Origin: Paenibacillus donghaensis | Lineage (GTDB): Bacteria > Bacillota > Bacilli > Paenibacillales > Paenibacillaceae | Length of the DNA stretch: 64,000 bases | Direction of reading: 5' to 3' | Assembly: GCF_002192415.1 (NCBI RefSeq) | Contig: NZ_CP021780.1 | Coordinates: 7,750,001-7,814,000, forward strand | Shown here: piece after piece, positions 777-47,930 of the stretch | How the letters are laid out: every line of letters begins with the position of its first letter | Position numbering within the stretch: position 1 is the stretch's first letter | The notes under the pieces: model-generated | What the model saw: the letters and a program-made list of their open reading frames with translations, nothing else | Database searches by the model: none | Told to the model about the DNA's origin: nothing | Translations under genes and position numbers: made by a program

Positions 777-811
777 AAGAGGCGGTCCTGCCCTGCGGGA
801 GCGCCTCTTAT
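777..811 (+). terminator. Terminator of the IclR gene, split from its downstream side by an intron
   Basis: Arms AAGAGGCG (777-784) and CGCCTCTT (802-809) form an 8-bp stem with partial further pairing inside. The T-rich side is cut at 811/812, where a class IIC group II intron starts. Insertion just 3' of terminator hairpins is the known preference of class IIC introns. Confidence 0.8.
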
Positions 812-1373
812 GTGCGCCCAGCATGGGCGCTATCTATAGGGTGAAAGTCCCGAATGGTGAAGGCAGTAGTAGCCATTAGCTTAAGACAAGGGTGTCCACC
901 GTGAGGTGGAATCTGAAGGAAGTCGGCGGCAAACCTCCGGTTCGAGGAACACGAATCTCATATCAGGCTAACGTTCATTGGATGAGACTGCATAACAAGT
1001 TAAAGTCCTTACTGCCGAAGATGAACGGAAGTAAATGAGGCGAATAGATGGAGGGAAAGATAGCGTTCTTACCTGGGGAGATCTGTGCGAAACACGAAGA
1101 CAACTTTGTAACCCTGTTCGTGAGGACAGGCTGAACGCACAGAAGTCAGCAGACGTCATAGTACGCAAGCTGTTGCAATAGCTGCGGAAGGACCGAACAT
1201 GAAATAGGTATTTGTACATCCAGGCGTTCAAGATGAGTAATGAAAGCAGAATATCCGAAAGGAACTGACTGAAGAAGGAAGCGGTGAATTCCGTGTGGGG
1301 CTTCGGCAGGGCAGAATTCATCTCTGGCACAAGAGGAAAGTACAAATCACGTAAAGAGAGGTATATAAAAAAA

Positions 1374-2635
1374 ATGTTGGAGCAGTTACTGTCACGGGAA
1401 AATCTTCTACAAGCGTTAAAGCGTGTGGAAGCCAATAAAGGAAGCCATGGCGTAGATGGGATGTCCGTAAAATCCTTACGAGAACACATCGTACACAACT
1501 GGCAATCCTTACGGCAAGCGATAGAAGAAGGAACCTACCAACCTAGTCCCGTGCGTCGGGTCGAAATCCCGAAACCGAATGGCGGAGGTGTCAGGAAGTT
1601 AGGAATCCCTACCGTGACCGACCGAATGCTACAGCAAGCCATCGCCCAGGTGTTAACCCCATTGTTCGATCCACAGTTTTCCGAGCACAGTTATGGATTT
1701 CGCCCCAAAAGGCGGGGACATGATGCCGTAAGGGAAGCAAGAGGATTCATGAAAGAAGGATACCGATTTGTAGTCGACCTGGACTTGGAGAAATTCTTTG
1801 ATCGCGTCAACCATGACCGTCTAATGCTGAAGATTTCGGAGAAAGTGAAGGACAAGAAAGTCCTTTTACTTATTCGTAAATACCTTCAATCGGGCGTGAT
1901 GGAGAACGGGTTAGTTCAACCGACACTAGAAGGAGCACCGCAAGGGGGTCCTTTGAGTCCGTTATTATCTAATATTGTACTGGACGAGTTGGACAAGGAA
2001 TTAGAGCAACGTGGACACCACTTCGTCCGCTATGCGGATGACTGTAATATCTACGTGAAAACGCCAAGAGCAGGCGAACGAGTCAAGGCATCCGTCACCC
2101 GATTCATCGAGACAAGGTTAAACTCAAGGTGAACCAAGGAAAGAGTGCAGTAGACCGACCCTGGAAACGGAAATTTCTTGGGTTTAGTTTTAGTGTGGAC
2201 AAAGAGCCGAAGGTGAGAATTGCGAAGCAGTCCTTACAGAAAGCGAAGGTCAGAATTCGAGAGATCACGTCTCGAAAGAAACCGATGAAGATGGAAGAGC
2301 GAATCAAGGAACTAAACCAATACCTAATGGGATGGTGCGGGTACTTCTCGCTAGCGGATACACCAAGTGTTCTTCAAGACATGGATAAATGGGTACGAAG
2401 AAGGCTACGAATGTGCCTTTGGAAGCAATGGAAGAACCCGAGAACCAAAGTCAAAAGGCTACTATCCTTAGGCATGCCTAAGAATAAAGCCTATGAATGG
2501 GGAAATACCCGAAAAGGGTATTGGCGAATAGCAGGAAGTCCAATTTTGTCACGAGCATTGAATAACCAATACTGGGAATCCAATGGACTCAAGAGCTTAT
2601 TGGACAGATACAACTCACTACGGAATATTTCATGA
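1374..2635 (+). pseudogene. ltrA: Frameshifted group IIC intron maturase/reverse transcriptase
   Basis: Encodes the reverse transcriptase/maturase of the outer intron, normally about 420 aa. Start chosen at ATG 1374 (MLEQLLSRENLLQALKRVEA is the class C N-terminus); the reading frame upstream is ribozyme sequence. Fingers/palm motifs are present, including QGGPLSPLLSN and the catalytic FVRYADD. At 2115-2120 one base is missing: the frame reads ETRLNSR then stops at 2130-2132, whereas the -1 frame continues KLKVNQGKSAVDRPWKRKF with the maturase X domain (WCGYFSLAD) to the stop at 2633-2635. No HNH endonuclease domain, as usual for class C. Restoring one base would give an intact protein, so this is a recent lesion or a sequencing error. 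Confidence 0.88.
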
Positions 2636-2668
2636 ACCGCCGTATACCGAACGGTACGTACGGTGGTG

Positions 2669-4506
2669 GTGTGCTGTGAAAGTTGCGTCAGAGATGAGGA
2701 AGGCCCCTCGACGGGGATCGAGTCAGGCGAACCCGTCAAACAACCCTAAGCTGCTGCAATTAAGAGTTGTGGTAGTGAGCGTCTAGGGAAAAGGTTGCCA
2801 CAAGCAATCATGTGGGATATGCAAAGATGAACGAAAGTGAACTGCCGATGAAGTATCGATAACGTAAAGCTTTGTCAAAACCTGTTGTTCACCACTAGAC
2901 AGGGATAAGAGCAGAAGTAGACCTGAAGGCTGACTGCTCGGCAAACGGTATTAAGGCAGCATGAGTGCATATCAGGCTCTGATGTGAAACACAGGAACCT
3001 GCATCACGATAGTAAGTGAAAAGACACAAGTCACAGAAAGACGAGGTCGAAATAGCAAAGCGTGATGCAGGGGCGGAGGTACCCGTAATAGTAATGAAGT
3101 TGCTGTAATGGCAATGGAGCGAAGGGGTACCATCATTCAGCTCGAAGCAGAGAACAACTGTTGTAACAGGAGGATTCGATGAAAGAGGGCAAGCCATTTG
3201 ACATTTCAAAGCAAGTTGTTATGACAGCATTTAAGAGAGTCAAAGCGAATAAGGGAAGCGCAGGGATTGACGGTCTGGACATAAAGGATTTTGAAAAAGA
3301 CCTCAAAGGAAACTTGTATAAGATCTGGAACAGAATGAGTTCCGGAAGTTATTTCCCTCCACCGGTTAAATTGGTCGAGATTCCAAAGAAATCAGGTGGA
3401 ACAAGAGGACTCGGCATTCCGACAGTCGGGGATAGAGTGGCCCAAATGGTAGTTAAAATGTATATAGAGCCGCGAGTAGAGGCTATATTCCATACAGACT
3501 CTTATGGATACCGTCCAAACAAGTCAGCTATCGATGCAATAGGTCAAGCGAGGAAAAGGTGCTGGAGAAATGATTATGTCTTAGAATTTGACATCAAAGG
3601 TCTATTTGACAATATCGATCATGAATTATTAATGCGTGCAGTGCGAAAGCACATAAGCGAATCATGGATACTGATGTATATCGAAAGATGGCTCAACGCA
3701 CCGTTCATAAATTCAGAAGGTCAATGGATTGAACGCAAAAGCGGAACCCCTCAGGGTGGTGTCATCAGTCCTGTACTTGCGAATCTGTTTATGCATTACG
3801 CTTTTGACTTGTGGATGAAACGAACAAATCCAAATGCACCGTTTGAAAGATATGCAGATGATGCCATTATCCACTGCAGAACGCAAGCAGAAGCAGAAGA
3901 GATTCTGGAAAAACTCAAGAAACGACTAGAGGAATGCAAGCTTGAATTGCATCCAACGAAAACCAAGATTGTATACTGCAAGGATAAGGACAGAGTGAAG
4001 GAGTTTCCAGTCACCGATTTTGAGTTTTTGGGATATACCTTTCGGAGGGTGTTCATAAAAGACAGACTAGGGAGGTTGCAGTTCAACTTCCTACCATCGG
4101 TGAGTGTGAAATCAGCCAAAGCATTCAGAGACAAGATAAAAGCGATGCGAATTCATAGCTATACCGGTAGTAAAATTGAAATGATCGCTGAAATGCTATC
4201 TCCGATGGTCAGAGGTTGGCTTAACTACTTCACGAAATTCAATCCATCAGCAGTAAAGTATACCATTGACTGTCTAAATCGCAGATTGGTCAAATGGGCA
4301 ATGTGTAAATACAAGAGGTTCAGGGGACATCGCAGTCGAGCGGAAAAATGGCTGAAAGAACTTGCAAAAAGAGAGCCCAATATGTTTCCACATTGGGCTC
4401 TCGGAATGAAACCATAACTGGCTGAATGATAAGAGCCGTATGAATCGAGAGGTTCACGTACGGTTCTGTGAGAGCCTGAAGGTGAAACTCCTTTGGGCTA
4501 CTCGAC
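2669..4506 (+). mobile_element. Inner group II intron (complete) inside the outer intron
   Basis: Starts with GTGTGCTGTGAAAG, fitting the GUGYG consensus, and ends with domain VI GAGAGCCTGAAGGTGAAACT followed by CTACTCGAC. Domain V is the 34-nt hairpin at 4433-4466 (GAGCCGTA...TACGGTTC). An intact 412-aa maturase lies in domain IV. The sequence and maturase differ clearly from the class IIC outer element; from memory the protein resembles the class D/E group, but I cannot settle the class. Its removal restores the outer intron exactly at the domain V-VI joint. Confidence 0.88.
3179..4417 (+). CDS. ltrA: Group II intron reverse transcriptase/maturase (inner intron)
   Basis: A 412-aa intron-encoded protein that should promote splicing and reverse-transcribe the intron during retrohoming. 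The RT domain spans about residues 10-280: SYGYRPNKSA, GTPQGGVISPVLANLF and the catalytic FERYADDAII. A maturase (X) domain follows (MLSPMVRGWLNYF). The protein ends in a basic tail (KWLKELAKREPNMFPHWALG) without an HNH endonuclease. ATG 3179 is preceded by a good AGGAGG at 3170-3175. The stop lies 15 nt before domain V, as expected for a domain IV ORF. Intact, unlike the outer maturase, so it may be the only active retroelement protein in the window. Confidence 0.92.
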   Translation: MKEGKPFDISKQVVMTAFKRVKANKGSAGIDGLDIKDFEKDLKGNLYKIWNRMSSGSYFPPPVKLVEIPKKSGGTRGLGIPTVGDRVAQMVVKMYIEPRVEAIFHTDSYGYRPNKSAIDAIGQARKRCWRNDYVLEFDIKGLFDNIDHELLMRAVRKHISESWILMYIERWLNAPFINSEGQWIERKSGTPQGGVISPVLANLFMHYAFDLWMKRTNPNAPFERYADDAIIHCRTQAEAEEILEKLKKRLEECKLELHPTKTKIVYCKDKDRVKEFPVTDFEFLGYTFRRVFIKDRLGRLQFNFLPSVSVKSAKAFRDKIKAMRIHSYTGSKIEMIAEMLSPMVRGWLNYFTKFNPSAVKYTIDCLNRRLVKWAMCKYKRFRGHRSRAEKWLKELAKREPNMFPHWALGMKP

Positions 4507-4544
4507 TGAGAGGTCGGGGGCTAGCCGCCCCCTCCTACTCGATT

Positions 4545-4861
4545 AGTTTAGGTGGGCTTAACCGTGGAGGAAAAGAGCGGCCTAGTAAGTCTCTGAACCA
4601 ACATTCAAACTAACTATGCTCCAACCTATGAATCAGCAACGAACGAACCAATCAGCGAAACACGGATGAATGAACAGATCAACGAACCAACGTACCTACA
4701 AGCTTAATAAACAAATTAATCACACTACACTGAATTAACCAACAAACGACGGACAACCCAAACCCAAACCCGATTATCGCCCATCCGCCTAACTCCCAAC
4801 CAACAAGTCTCAAGCACCTAAACACAGCATCCAATCACTGCAAAGCAACATCCCAAGCTCT
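4545..4861 (+). other. Non-coding, A/C-rich and G-poor tract after the intron
   Basis: No credible gene. The + strand is strikingly poor in G from about 4600 to 4860 and repeats words such as AACGAAC, AACCAA and CCAAC, as if built from a decayed short repeat. No promoter or start was recognised. Flanks: outer intron 3' end and a nested inverted repeat. Confidence 0.6.
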
Positions 4862-5042
4862 TACGGACCGTATAGCCTCTATTTCGTATTTTTGCCCGGT
4901 ATTGGAGGATTAGCGGACCGGAGAGCCCTTATTTACTGTTTCAGAGCGCGGAATGGCAGGGTTTGATGCATATAAGGGCTCCTGAGTCCGCTAGAGTGAG
5001 CAGAATACGAAAATATGCTAAATAGCGGCTGCTGGGTCCGTT
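4862..5042. repeat. Nested long imperfect inverted repeat
   Basis: Two sets of arms are nested. Outer arms: ACGGACC...ATTTCGTATT near 4863-4890 against AATACGAAAAT...GGGTCCGT near 5003-5041. Inner arms: GCGGACCGGAGAGCCCTTAT near 4913-4933 against ATAAGGGCTCCTGAGTCCGC near 4975-4994. The element lies in a non-coding stretch and looks like an intergenic repeat of the Paenibacillus kind. A further related end (CCCCAGAGTCCGCAGG) follows near 5090. Confidence 0.65.
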
Positions 5043-5204
5043 AGGAGTGTTGATGGTGCTGGTTTGGAGAAACGGCAAACGCTAGCAACCCCAGAGTCCG
5101 CAGGGTTGTTGGACTGGTATTCTATACTGGAGGGCAGGTTATAATCTAGCGTTAACAGAGGTGGGGGGAATGGTTGTGTTGTCAGAAAAACTATACTTTA
5201 GACC

Positions 5205-5250
5205 ACAAAAAACACCCCCTAGAGATCCTCAGGACTCTCTAGGGGGTGTT
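5205..5250 (-). terminator. Terminator of acnA
   Basis: Near-perfect hairpin with arms AACACCCCCTAGAGA and TCTCTAGGGGGTGTT around a short loop. On the minus strand it is followed by TTTTTT, placing it about 100 nt after the acnA stop. Confidence 0.9.
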
Positions 5251-5346
5251 CGAGGTAAAGCTGCAGTTATAACGGTTAGCAGTCAGTACGCACTTACTGG
5301 TGCCCGCATTTATTATTCACTAATTACTAAGTCTGCTCAGTGGCAG

Positions 5347-8091
5347 TTATTCTACTGGCAAGGCGTTCTCGGAAGTAGTGGCATCCGCCAGCATCTGGCG
5401 CAGCACGGTCTGCAGGATTCCGCCATTGCGGTAGTAATCAATATCCACGGTGCTGTCCAGGCGGGCAATCACCGGGAACTCGAACTGTGTGCCGTCTTCA
5501 CGGATAGCAGTAACAGTCAGCTCCTGGGAAGGTACCACGGAGTTGTCCAGACCCGTAATGCTGAAGGTCTCGCGTCCGGTCAGACCCATGCTGCTCCAGC
5601 TATAACCTTCCTGGAATTGCAGCGGCAGCACGCCCATGCCGACGAGATTGCTGCGGTGAATCCGCTCGAAGCTCTCGGCAATAACGGCTTTGACGCCGAG
5701 CAGCAGGGTGCCTTTGGCGGCCCAGTCACGGGAGCTGCCTGTGCCGTATTCCTTGCCTGAGATAACAATTAGATTCTGGCCGGCAGATTGGTAGAGCATC
5801 GAGGCGTCATAGATCGACATGACTTCCTCGCTTGGCAGGAAGGTGGTTACCCCGCCTTCGGTGCCAGGGGCTACCGCGTTGCGGATGCGGATGTTGGCGA
5901 AAGTACCACGCATCATCACTTCATGATTGCCGCGGCGTGAGCCATAGGAGTTGAAGTCCGCGCGCTCTACGCCATGTCCGCGCAGGTATTCTCCGGCAGG
6001 GCCGGCAGCGGTAATATTACCCGCAGGCGAGATATGGTCAGTGGTCACGGAATCGCCCAGCAGCGCCAGCACGCGGGCATTGGTAATATCCTTGATATCG
6101 CCAAGACCGTCCGCCAGATGCTCAAAGAACGGCGGGTTCTGAATGTAGGTAGAATTATCATCCCATTCATACAGCTCGCCTTCAGGGACAGGGATCGCAT
6201 TCCAGCGCTCATTGGCAGTGAAGACATTCTCGTATTTGCGGCGGAACATCTCCGGGCTAAGCGAGCGCTGAGTGGCTTCGCGGATCTCTGCCGTAGTCGG
6301 CCAGATGTCCTTCAGGTAGACTGGCTCCCCTTGCGGATCGTAGCCAAGCGGCTCCGTCTGCAGATCAATGTTGACGGTGCCGGCCAGCGCGTAAGCGACA
6401 ACAAGCGGAGGTGAAGCCAGGTAGTTGGCCTTGACCTGGGCATGCACACGTCCCTCGAAGTTGCGGTTCCCGGATATAACGGCGGCAACGGTCATATCAT
6501 TGTCTGTGATGGCTTCGCTGACTTCATCGGGCAGCGGGCCGGAGTTGCCGATACAGGTGGCGCAGCCATAGCCGGCCAAGTAGAAGCCCAATGCTTCCAG
6601 CGGCTTCAGAAGGTCTGCCTTCTCCAGATATTCGGTAACCACCAGCGAGCCGGGAGTCAGACTGGTTTTGACATAACCGGGTTTGGTCAGTCCACGTTCG
6701 ACCGCTTTCTTCGCGAGCAGGCCTGCCCCGAGCATAACGCTTGGGTTGGAGGTGTTCGTACAGCTGGTGATCGCTGCAATCACGACAGCACCTGTGCTGA
6801 GCTTGCTTGTGCTGCCGTTCTTGTGAGTGACCTCGACAACCTCGGCAATCTTCTCATCGCTGAGGCCGTACCCGCCCTTGTCGACAGGGGTGCGGATAAT
6901 GCCTTCGAAATTCTCTTTCATATGCGTAAGTTCGATCCGGTCCTGCGGACGTTTCGGTCCGGCCATGCTTGGCACAACAGAAGCCAGATCAAGCTCGATG
7001 GAATCGCTGAACTGCGGGTCCGGGGTATCAGCGGTGCGGAACATGCCCTGTGCCTTGTAATAAGTCTCTACCAACTCGACCAGATCGTCGGGACGACCGG
7101 TGCTGCGCAGATAAGCCAGCGTTTCGTCGTCTACCGGGAAGAAGCCGATGGTTGCGCCGTATTCCGGTGCCATATTGGCTACCGTTGCCCGGTCCGCCAG
7201 ACTGATGTTGGACAGTCCCGGTCCATAGAACTCAACGAACTTGCCGACAACGCCTTTCTTGCGCAGGATTTGGGTTACGGTCAGCGCCAGATCGGTTGCG
7301 GTAGCCCCTTCGATCAGACTGCCGGTCAGCTTGAAGCCTACTACGTCTGGTGTGACAAAATAAAGCGGCTGTCCCAGCATGCCTGCCTCGGCCTCAATTC
7401 CGCCCACGCCCCAGCCGACAACGCCAAGACCATTGATCATTGTGGTATGGGAATCGGTACCGACCAGGGAATCGGGATAAACGGTGGTTTCTCCGTCCGT
7501 AGTCTTGGTAGTGGCAACAGAAGCCAGATATTCAAGGTTAACCTGATGCACGATGCCTGTGGCGGGAGGAACGGCGCGGAAATTGTTGAAAGCCGTCTGA
7601 GCCCAGCGCAGGAAGCGGTAGCGCTCCTCATTGCGTTCAAACTCCACATTCATATTATATTCAAGCGCGTCGGCGGTTCCGAATGCGTCCACCATGACAG
7701 AGTGGTCAATGACAAGATCTACAGGGACCAGCGGGTTGATCTTCTTGGGATCGCCGCCGGCTTTTTTGACGGTATCACGCATGGCCGCCAGATCGACGAC
7801 CACTGGAACGCCGGTGAAATCCTGCAGCACGATCCGGGCAGGGATAAATGGAATCTCCTTGCTGCGGTCAATGTCGCCTGACCAATTGGCCAATTGCTTC
7901 ACATGTTCTTCGGTAATGGCTCTGCCGTCATATTGACGCACAGCAGCCTCTAATAATACTTTGATGGAAAAAGGCAGGGACTTGATATCGCCCGCTCCTT
8001 GCTCTTCCAGAGAGCCGAGATCGAAATAGCGGTAAGATTTGCCTCCGGATTGCAGGGTTCGGGCCAGCGAAAAATGATCCTTGCTTGGCAT
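5347..8091 (-). CDS. acnA: Aconitate hydratase AcnA
   Basis: TCA-cycle enzyme interconverting citrate and isocitrate through a [4Fe-4S] cluster; cytoplasmic. 914 aa, typical of bacterial AcnA/IRP1-like aconitases. Cluster cysteines are seen in [13 protein letters not shown] (about C443) and [15 protein letters not shown] (about C509 and C512). The C-terminal swivel domain carries [13 protein letters not shown]. The start is taken at 8091 ([13 protein letters not shown]), because AAGGAGG lies 7 nt upstream; a further in-frame ATG 21 nt upstream would contain that ribosome binding site. A promoter fits at 8148-8176 and a strong terminator at 5205-5250, so it is probably monocistronic. Related AcnA proteins can bind RNA when iron-starved; not shown here. 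Confidence 0.97.
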
Positions 8092-36594: not shown

Positions 36595-36604
36595 GAAATA
36601 TAGC

Positions 36605-37315
36605 GTGCCCAGAGGCACGCGTTATCTAGTTGGTGAAAGTCCAACCCAAGGAGGGGCCAAGCCACCTTTGTAGCTAGGATGCTTGCGCATGGCGAAATCT
36701 GTGTGTAAAAGCGCATCGACAAAAGTACCTGTCAGAGATAGGGCGAGCAACGACCCAGGCCGCAACACCAAGTGAATCCTGCCGCGTCGTCAAAAAGGCC
36801 CTGCAAAGGGGAAAAGAAGGAGCCGAGTCTCGTGTATTTAGACGAAGGCCAAGGAAACTGTATAGAACTTGGAACCACAGTGAAGAACCTTCCGGCGTAT
36901 AGGGAACGGCATGGGTTGAAAGATAGCGCAGTGAACTGGGGAGACCCTCCCCTGCACGGGATTATTTTTTTTAGAAACCGTAAATAGACGCTCTATAAGC
37001 CCAAAAGGCGAAGTGAACCGTCTGCAGGAAGGGAGTCCGAGGGGCTCATAGTACCGAAGAACCTAAGGACAACATAACCTTAGGGAGGGAAGGGGCCCTG
37101 CTTTGTTCATGTTTGACCAAGAGGTACGAGTTCGTGAATGCCAAAAGGCTAACGACACGCAAGAAAATGCTCAATAACTCTAAGGGGAAACTAGGTCATG
37201 AGGCCAAAGTCAATAGGCTGCATGCCCATGAATGACGAACATCGGAAAGCCGTATGAGGGAAAACCTCACGTACGGTTTGATGAGGAGGGGCTGGTCAGG
37301 CCAGTCCTTTACTCT
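36605..37315 (+). mobile_element. ORF-less group II intron downstream of guaA
   Basis: About 710 nt. Domain V is the 34-nt hairpin 37246-37279 (AAAGCCGTATGAGG...CCTCACGTACGGTTT, catalytic AGC present), followed by a domain VI hairpin GGGGCTGGTCAGGCCAGTCC. The 5' end is placed at GTGCCCAGAGGCAC (36605); domain I-like sequence follows. Between about 36980 and 37240, where a maturase would be, there is only a short frame without RT motifs. The ends are uncertain by a few bases. It differs from both introns at 812-4544. It may be moved and spliced in trans by a maturase made elsewhere, or be dead. Confidence 0.8.
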
Positions 37316-37371
37316 AGAAAATTTAAATGTTTCACGCTATCAATTATCCTTCTACTTGTATGCTTCAGGCC
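37316..37371 (+). repeat. Partial copy of repeat family A
   Basis: ATGTTTCACGCTATCAATTA and CCTTCTACTTG match the first half of family A (compare 61383-61413). The hairpin half is missing. It abuts the 3' end of the ORF-less intron. Confidence 0.55.
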
Positions 37372-47677: not shown

Positions 47678-47760
47678 ACACGATAACGGCAAACCTGTCG
47701 AAAGGCAGGGACGCAAAGCTAAAGGGCCTTTTCCACAAGGATGGCAGCCAGCTACCGAAA
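47678..47760 (+). ncRNA. c-di-GMP-I (GEMM) riboswitch, first of tandem pair
   Basis: ACGGCAAACC, then GTCGAAAGGC tetraloop stem, GGGACGCAAAGC and a 3' GGATGGCAGCCAGCTACCG half are the GEMM-I core. It is followed by GATGAGGCTTTTTTT; AGCC in the aptamer 3' half can pair with GGCT before the T-run, giving a plausible terminator to about 47776. Confidence 0.92.
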
Positions 47761-47842: not shown

Positions 47843-47930
47843 TATACGATAACGGCAAACCTGTCGAAAGGCAGGGACGCAAAGCTAAAGGGCCTTCCCG
47901 TAAGGATGGCAGCCAGCTACCGAAAGGAGT
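47843..47930 (+). ncRNA. c-di-GMP-I (GEMM) riboswitch, second of tandem pair
   Basis: The same core as the first copy; about 50 nt from CGATAACGGC to GGGCCTT are identical. The 3' end GCTACCGAAAGGAG contains the ribosome binding site of the next gene, 8 nt before its ATG, so this copy probably acts on translation. Confidence 0.92.

Follow-up and report, generated by a model that had tools for sequence, protein, structure and literature searches.

Nested introns in Paenibacillus donghaensis

A 64,000-nucleotide stretch of Paenibacillus donghaensis DNA (contig NZ_CP021780.1 of assembly GCF_002192415.1, forward-strand positions 7,750,001 to 7,814,000; hereafter the window) carries at 812-4543 a group II twintron, that is, one complete group II intron lying inside another, with boundaries that are good to within 1 base. 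The outer intron, which stands directly behind a terminator-like hairpin, is interrupted exactly between its domains V and VI by an inner intron that has its own ends, maturase gene and domains V and VI (Table 1). Domain V of the outer intron is complete upstream of the insertion, so that the displaced part is domain VI, carried away by 1.8 kb.

Table 1 Features of the twintron in the window
Feature	Position	Strand	Evidence or remark
Terminator-like hairpin	778-811	+	directly 5' of outer intron; usual kind of IIC target; by eye
Outer group IIC intron, split by inner intron	812-4543	+	
Outer ribozyme, Rfam D1-D4 models	895-1193	+	RF02001 895-1067; RF01998 1109-1193
Outer IIC maturase gene	1374-2635	+	frameshift near 2104-2132; open pieces 1374-2132 and 2129-2635
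Outer domain V, complete	2635-2668	+	model R1, 62.8 bits; fold
Stretch complementary to candidate EBS2	2655-2659	+	pairs with 2862-2866; by eye on alignment; weaker than IBS1
IBS1 of inner intron, final 7 bases of outer domain V	2662-2668	+	7/7 pairs with EBS1, 6 of them Watson-Crick
Inner group II intron, class D-like, 1838 nt	2669-4506	+	
Candidate EBS2 of inner intron	2862-2866	+	by eye on alignment
EBS1 of inner intron, CACCACT	2890-2896	+	in hairpin loop
Inner maturase/reverse transcriptase, intact, 412 amino acids	3179-4417	+	no endonuclease domain found
Inner domains V (4431-4468) and VI, bulged A 4500	4431-4506	+	RF00029, 61.4 bits; R1, 19.8 bits; fold
Outer V-VI linker and domain VI, bulged A 4537	4507-4543	+	fold of joined flanks; same layout in 17 empty homologues
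EBS, exon-binding site; IBS, intron-binding site.

Rfam models for the two introns follow one another in the order that nesting predicts, RF02001 and RF01998 in the outer intron preceding RF01999 (2696-2812) and RF00029 in the inner, all with E values of 1.2e-9 or better. The only domain V that Rfam reported in the window was, however, that of the inner intron, the outer one being unreported even at E<=1. We therefore built a covariance model, R1, from 14 domain V sequences of uninterrupted class IIC introns, and this found both domains in the expected order, the outer with an E value of 7e-12 and the inner with 0.021, together with a weak third match (37247-37280) inside another intron. The high score of the outer domain V is partly a matter of construction, because one training row (locus L114) is identical to it; the 14 rows had moreover been chosen for 15 identical bases at the joint together with a loose 5'-end motif, so that the last 8 columns of the model are invariant. 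Since RF00029 reached its cutoff in just 3/8 empty homologues of the outer intron, the Rfam miss reflects a weakness of the family model.

When base 2668 is joined to base 4507, the flanks fold into a normal domain V followed by a domain VI with a bulged A (-39.0 kcal/mol). The outer intron also exists without the inner one in relatives: among 29 outer-related loci in other genomes of the family (L113-L141), the V/VI joint was readable in 17 and empty in every one of them, reading CGGTGGTG up to the joint and TGAGAG after it. The base following ...CTCGAT varies among these empty copies, which places the 3' end of the outer intron most likely at 4543.

These results bear out an original prediction made from the letters of the window, which had described an intact intron nested in a class IIC intron, the two belonging to different classes, and an inner unit with its own 5' end, maturase, domain V and domain VI, whose removal by joining 2668 to 4507 would restore the outer V-VI joint. 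Its view that the outer domain VI is out of place until the inner intron leaves likewise holds, domain V itself being complete, while the outer 3' end that it gave, 4544, is to be corrected by one base. As for the checks it had proposed, a covariance search for two ordered domain V hits succeeded with R1 and not with Rfam, and the search for an empty outer intron in related genomes turned up the uninterrupted joint described above.

Classes of the two introns

The outer intron is, on the evidence of its protein and its insertion site, class IIC. Although its maturase gene is frameshifted in the window, an intact open reading frame (ORF) of 420 amino acids is present in two further copies in the same genome (L011 and L012). 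The intact maturase of a sister copy matched the reverse transcriptase (RT) of GsI-IIC at 6e-172, as against 4.5e-42 for LtrA, with the remainder weaker. It also matched the 7uim maturase (1.6e-120) and two 'retron-type' RT fragments (about 1e-93), all of which we take to be class IIC proteins. By eye, a terminator-like hairpin precedes all four outer copies in the genome, with long T runs in L011 and L012 only; insertion behind terminator hairpins is a known habit of class IIC introns, as described in an excerpt of a review (PMC4424553).

We call the inner intron class D-like (RmInt1-type), and thus different in class from the outer, an assignment made by the kinship of its maturase to rhizobial elements and for which EBS1, domain V and domain VI of the RNA were examined. 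Besides RVT_1 and GIIM, a Pfam search of the inner maturase gave a marginal RdRP_1 match (24.4 bits against a cutoff of 23.9) and no endonuclease domain. The protein has no strong kinship to solved maturases (best match 1.1e-47) and falls near rhizobial elements; among the plasmid matches listed, an element of Sinorhizobium meliloti GR4 (L166) is 55.8% identical and lies in a neighbouring clade. This element would be RmInt1 or RmInt2 of that strain, both of which are class D introns according to PMC5894124.

A lineage of inner introns with one insertion site

When 84,980 species genomes were scanned with the inner maturase as query, 102 relatives came up, the best 80 of which were kept as 79 loci (L079 was left out), and 7 of 30 listed rows of a plasmid search that covered 5000 records were taken up in addition. 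Within this set we define a lineage of 31 loci, made up of 30 of the 79 scan loci and L161 (L017-L035, L041, L061, L068, L073, L078, L080, L082, L087, L088, L093, L094 and L161). Going by the titles of the records, these loci belong to Aquibacillus, Bacillus, Neobacillus, Metabacillus, Schinkia, Paenibacillus, Cohnella, Clostridium, Peptoclostridium, Lutispora, Butyrivibrio, Lachnobacterium and other Lachnospiraceae, and to one metagenome-assembled genome labelled Kiritimatiellae; the closest named relative among the best 80 of the 102, in Paenibacillus sp. DMB20, is 94% identical. Searches of viral DNA gave 5 stretches in viral contigs that fit a pattern, none of them a relative, and a best phage match of 51%.

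The 5' end of the inner intron could be read in 20 of the 31 loci (17 rows of the maturase tree, and L034, L041 and L082 outside it), and in all 20 it lies at the same base, directly after the GGTGGTG or GGTGCTG of an IIC-type domain V. Upstream of 17 of these 20 there is a match to a class IIC maturase (36-68% identity), none being found upstream of L029, L031 (where only 116 bases precede) and L032. On the other side, an IIC-type domain VI follows the inner intron in 29/31 loci. In a 49-row maturase tree the lineage falls into a single clade supported at 100/100; it comprises 21 rows, one of them the window, and 18 of these rows have both junctions at the V/VI joint and 3 the 3' side only.

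Near-identical inner introns sit in strongly diverged class IIC hosts: those of L018, L020 and L021 are 97.5-97.9% identical in DNA, while the maturases of their hosts are 50-57% identical in protein. Compared in this way, the three insertions are independent of one another.

Three loci of the lineage look like collapsed twintrons (L027, 3426-5344; L068, about 3390-5315; L061, about 3690-5340). They are chimeras of a IIC 5' ribozyme, an RT with a IIC-like start and an inner-type remainder, and inner-type domains V-VI, and the RT is one intact frame of 457 amino acids in L027 and is broken into several frames in L061 and L068.

Copies within the genome

In the P. donghaensis genome the outer 5' part occurs four times with the inner intron in it, at the identical base, and the inner intron is identical in all four while the outers differ. 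A fifth match is an outer fragment (query 1-1137) cut by an element that we read as IS110-like, and a sixth spans 98 bases. R1 was applied to 150 of the 3399 first-look candidates in the genome and recovered five IIC-type domain V sequences, of which the top four are occupied and the fifth, weaker, at 5047004, is empty. The sole exact 17-base target without an inner intron in this genome belongs to a 3' fragment from which the 5' strand of domain V is missing.

L011 and L012 are identical across the entire twintron and lie at different places in the genome behind different hairpins, and hence point to recent movement. The window copy differs from L011 at 10 positions, all upstream of 2222 (chance of about 6e-5 under an even spread), and between L013 (about 104890-108600) and L011 there are 148 differences within 812-2078, while 2079-4506 is the same in both. 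These tracts look like the result of gene conversion, which would have put the inner intron together with several hundred upstream bases into resident outer introns; plain recombination between copies would look the same. Independent retrohoming as the sole route of spread within this genome, which we also considered, is unsupported alone, given the difference tracts of L013 and the window copy.

The same copies bear on the idea of a single origin, after which the composite would have been passed on whole, vertically or horizontally, the shared site then going back to one ancestral insertion. The identical twintrons behind different hairpins would fit a recent move of the composite (or of the outer intron followed by the inner), and L021 and L035, identical in both proteins and in inner DNA, could be read likewise. 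Yet the outer intron of L013 is clearly diverged in its 5' part around an identical inner one, and the EBS1 loop fits the insertion site (see below). We set unit travel aside as very improbable because inner introns about 98% alike occupy IIC hosts that are 50-57% alike.

It might also be supposed that neither intron splices and that the inner one sits in a decayed relic. The frameshifted outer ORF of the window and the condition of L013, where the outer ORF is open from an internal start only (391 amino acids) and domain VI is cut beyond 4528, would agree with such decay. As the inner intron is intact and identical in four copies, and the 420-amino-acid outer ORF is intact in L011 and L012, whose identity at two sites implies recent movement, we consider this unlikely.

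Predicted guide pairing between the inner intron and domain V

The EBS1 loop of the inner intron is complementary to the GGTGGTG that ends the outer domain V, with one wobble beside the Watson-Crick pairs. Across 21 introns at the V/VI site, EBS1 reads CACCACT in 19 (17 by script, L030 and L041 by eye), CACCACC in L082 and CAGCACT in L026. V/VI-type loops form 6-7 of 7 pairs with their own target and a mean of 2.8-2.85 of 7 with the targets of other classes (L029 apart). For the 38 introns with an anchored loop (41 were given, L030, L041 and L144 being unanchored; L029 is mis-anchored), the mean is 6.84/7 pairs with the own target against 4.30/7 with other-class targets at the same position, a position that was picked for the best own score and that has an offset of 14 in 34/38. 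At the same loop position, sister lineages fit targets of their own, TCTCGTC with GACGAGA in IS630-like genes and TGTCGTC with GACGACA in IS66-like genes (both labels being our reading of translated flanks, and not a search result), and the loop TATGGAT of the S. meliloti element fits its target ATCCATA.

L026 and L028 show a crosswise fit, the former having the loop CAGCAC and a GTGGTG host and the latter CACCAC and a GTGCTG host, so that each would suit the host of the other; this may hint at a recent change of host.

A more general opportunism, in which class D-like introns would enter any abundant mobile DNA and class IIC introns happen to be abundant, is in keeping with the sister lineages in transposase-like and RT genes and with how common outer-like DNA is in the family of the window, where it was matched at E<=0.001 in 114/197 genomes, many in part only. 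Insertion is nevertheless confined to a single base in 20/20 readable cases, rather than being spread across the host's 1.8 kb, and that base adjoins the sequence which the guide loop complements, and we think there is very little chance that opportunism of this kind accounts for the pattern.

Relatives at YxDD codons

Thirteen relatives of the inner intron (L036, L143, L144, L146, L147, L149, L150, L151, L154, L162, L163, L165 and L167) lie directly behind Y/F-x-D-D codons, a motif like that of the reverse transcriptase active site, and so do four Singulisphaera loci (L037-L039 and L074). The proteins of L149 and L165 are identical, and the motif of L144 reads YADA. In three plasmid records the host shows up as two annotated RT or maturase fragments that flank the intron, and most hosts of this type are likely to be group II maturases. 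EBS1 is AGTCGTT in 7/11 YxDD introns with an anchored loop; because its G residues face third codon positions, the loop can pair with GAY GAY T under either synonym, G-U pairs included. In the careful 49-row tree the YxDD introns do not form a single clade.

A proposed specialist of class IIC introns

The inner intron very probably represents a lineage of class D-like introns without endonuclease (En-minus) that has specialised in retrohoming into class IIC introns at the V/VI joint. Seven findings read from sequence carry this view: the boundaries, the class of the hosts, the shared site, the maturase clade, the independent insertions, the EBS1-IBS1 complementarity and the empty homologous sites. 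The original prediction of a nested pair is thereby supported and yet incomplete, in that the nesting is not one odd event and the site is a recurrent target of an intron lineage.

In the mechanism that we propose, the EBS1 loop, and perhaps EBS2, would pair with the 3' strand of the host domain V, where the ribozyme is under high constraint, and the intron would enter the DNA by reverse splicing, precisely at the V/VI joint. It follows from the anatomy that splicing would be ordered: the inner intron must leave the transcript first, because until then the outer domain VI and its branch point are 1.8 kb away, and only afterwards could the outer intron splice and move. Before the inner intron has left, the outer could fold its domains I-V but could not branch. 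Since IBS1 and IBS2 together are a strand of the hairpin that forms the outer domain V, this domain would be unable to fold while the inner 5' splice site is recognised, and the reverse. A new outer copy would at first be empty, to be entered by the inner intron through retrohoming or through gene conversion from an occupied copy.

Several observations weigh against this reading or narrow it. Eleven of the 31 lineage loci lack a readable inner 5' end, and 11 were placed by identity and 3' end only, the other 20 being in the tree. L061 is unclear on its 3' side, and L073 has an inner-type 3' end with no adjoining IIC domain VI. The closest inner relative (L032, 94%; 3450-5372) lies in a domain V-VI relic, upstream of which no IIC domains I-IV or maturase were found. 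L026 and L028 each have one EBS1-IBS1 mismatch, EBS2 is weakly supported, and the contrast in EBS1 pairing is weak for the YxDD and IS630/IS66 types (5.4-6.5 of 7 pairs with other classes), because their targets resemble each other. The order of splicing and the mobility are, finally, deduced from sequence.

The rarity of the lineage is a further point on this side. Its 16-base target ACGGTGGTGTGAGAGG occurs in 65/398 genomes of the phylum; 29 of 30 target places inspected by eye run on into a domain VI-like hairpin (L195 is unclear) and 27 end in the tested motif, and the target pattern read backwards, as a control, was found once. Yet the occupied joint was found in 1/398 genomes of the class, namely P. 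donghaensis itself with its four copies. An inner-type protein at E<=1e-120 was present in 13/398 phylum genomes, and 12 of these, with one locus each, fall outside the V/VI clade and have a 5' site that, where found, is not the V/VI joint (for L145 it was not found). On these counts the inner lineage is widespread but rare.

With rather less assurance, though we still lean towards it, we propose a wider picture: a class D-like specialist parasite of class IIC introns would be distributed across Bacillota and read domain V, the competition between guide pairing and folding would act as an RNA switch that forces the inner intron to exit first, and the wider group to which it belongs would have aimed repeatedly at sequence that encodes or forms catalytic sites (YxDD codons, motif codons of IS630- and IS66-like transposases, and domain V). 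What looks like an accidental nesting would then be a host-parasite system of two ribozymes, in which a highly conserved part of one is the address of the other, and mutation of domain V to evade the parasite would hardly be open to the host, since catalysis would be lost. Such a system would lend itself as a natural test case for three questions: what keeps domain V so conserved, how one transcript accommodates two introns, and whether the evolution of guide loops leads to targets that are unable to escape.

Other features

The intron that gave the weak third R1 match lies at 36600-37317 in the window, apparently without a complete ORF (RF02003, 36627-36770; RF00029, 37245-37317), behind a terminator-like hairpin that follows a gene read as GMP synthase. 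Tandem c-di-GMP-I-GGC riboswitch aptamers occupy 47679-47760 and 47845-47925. At L073, two near-identical repeats (by eye) follow the inner-type 3' end within 824-930, one of them matching the Rfam CRISPR repeat RF01315 (828-857).

Comparison with known nested introns

The nested group II introns of Methanosarcina acetivorans reportedly have intron ORFs as their targets, to go by the title of Dai and Zimmerly 2003. Group II introns nested in one another are on record from bacteria, archaea and plastids (PMC4424553, PMC4649490, PMC2882425 and PMC4476101, each drawn on here and below in excerpt). Like our lineage, the introns of M. acetivorans home repeatedly and site-specifically into group II introns; they are archaeal, with up to five nested (reviewed in PMC4424553). 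A search of openly licensed PMC full texts, in the portions retrieved, found no intron lineage that homes to domain V, which is a weak sign of novelty, the studies of Dai and Zimmerly 2003 and Simon et al. 2008 lying outside its scope. The nesting of introns is already known, and what may be new is a lineage whose target is the ribozyme core of introns of a different class.

RmInt1 and RmInt2 of S. meliloti (class D, IIB3) resemble the inner intron in being En-minus and in relying on EBS/IBS pairing, and differ in that their named targets are insertion sequences and not introns, RmInt1 homing into an IS630-family element (PMC5894124). In Porphyridium plastids one inner intron occurs in two different outer introns at the same position, as here, although the setting is a plastid, the target is domain IV and one species is involved (PMC4476101).

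The Trichodesmium pair Tr.e.I7/I8 likewise combines two distantly related introns, each with its own intron-encoded protein; there a IIB host carries the inner intron in its domain I, within a protein gene and in one genus as reported, and sequential splicing was shown in vivo (Pfreundt and Hess 2015, PMC4649490). Similar in pattern are the TeI3/TeI4 twintrons of Thermosynechococcus elongatus, again group II in group II in a bacterium, where identical inner introns at one site in diverged outer introns have been read as recent independent insertions into outer introns already dispersed (Mohr et al. 2010, PMC2882425). That inner intron is ORF-less, is served by the protein of the outer and lies in domain IV between the first two ORF start codons, whereas the inner intron of P. 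donghaensis has its own maturase, is of another class than its host, sits at the V/VI joint and belongs to a lineage found in many genera.

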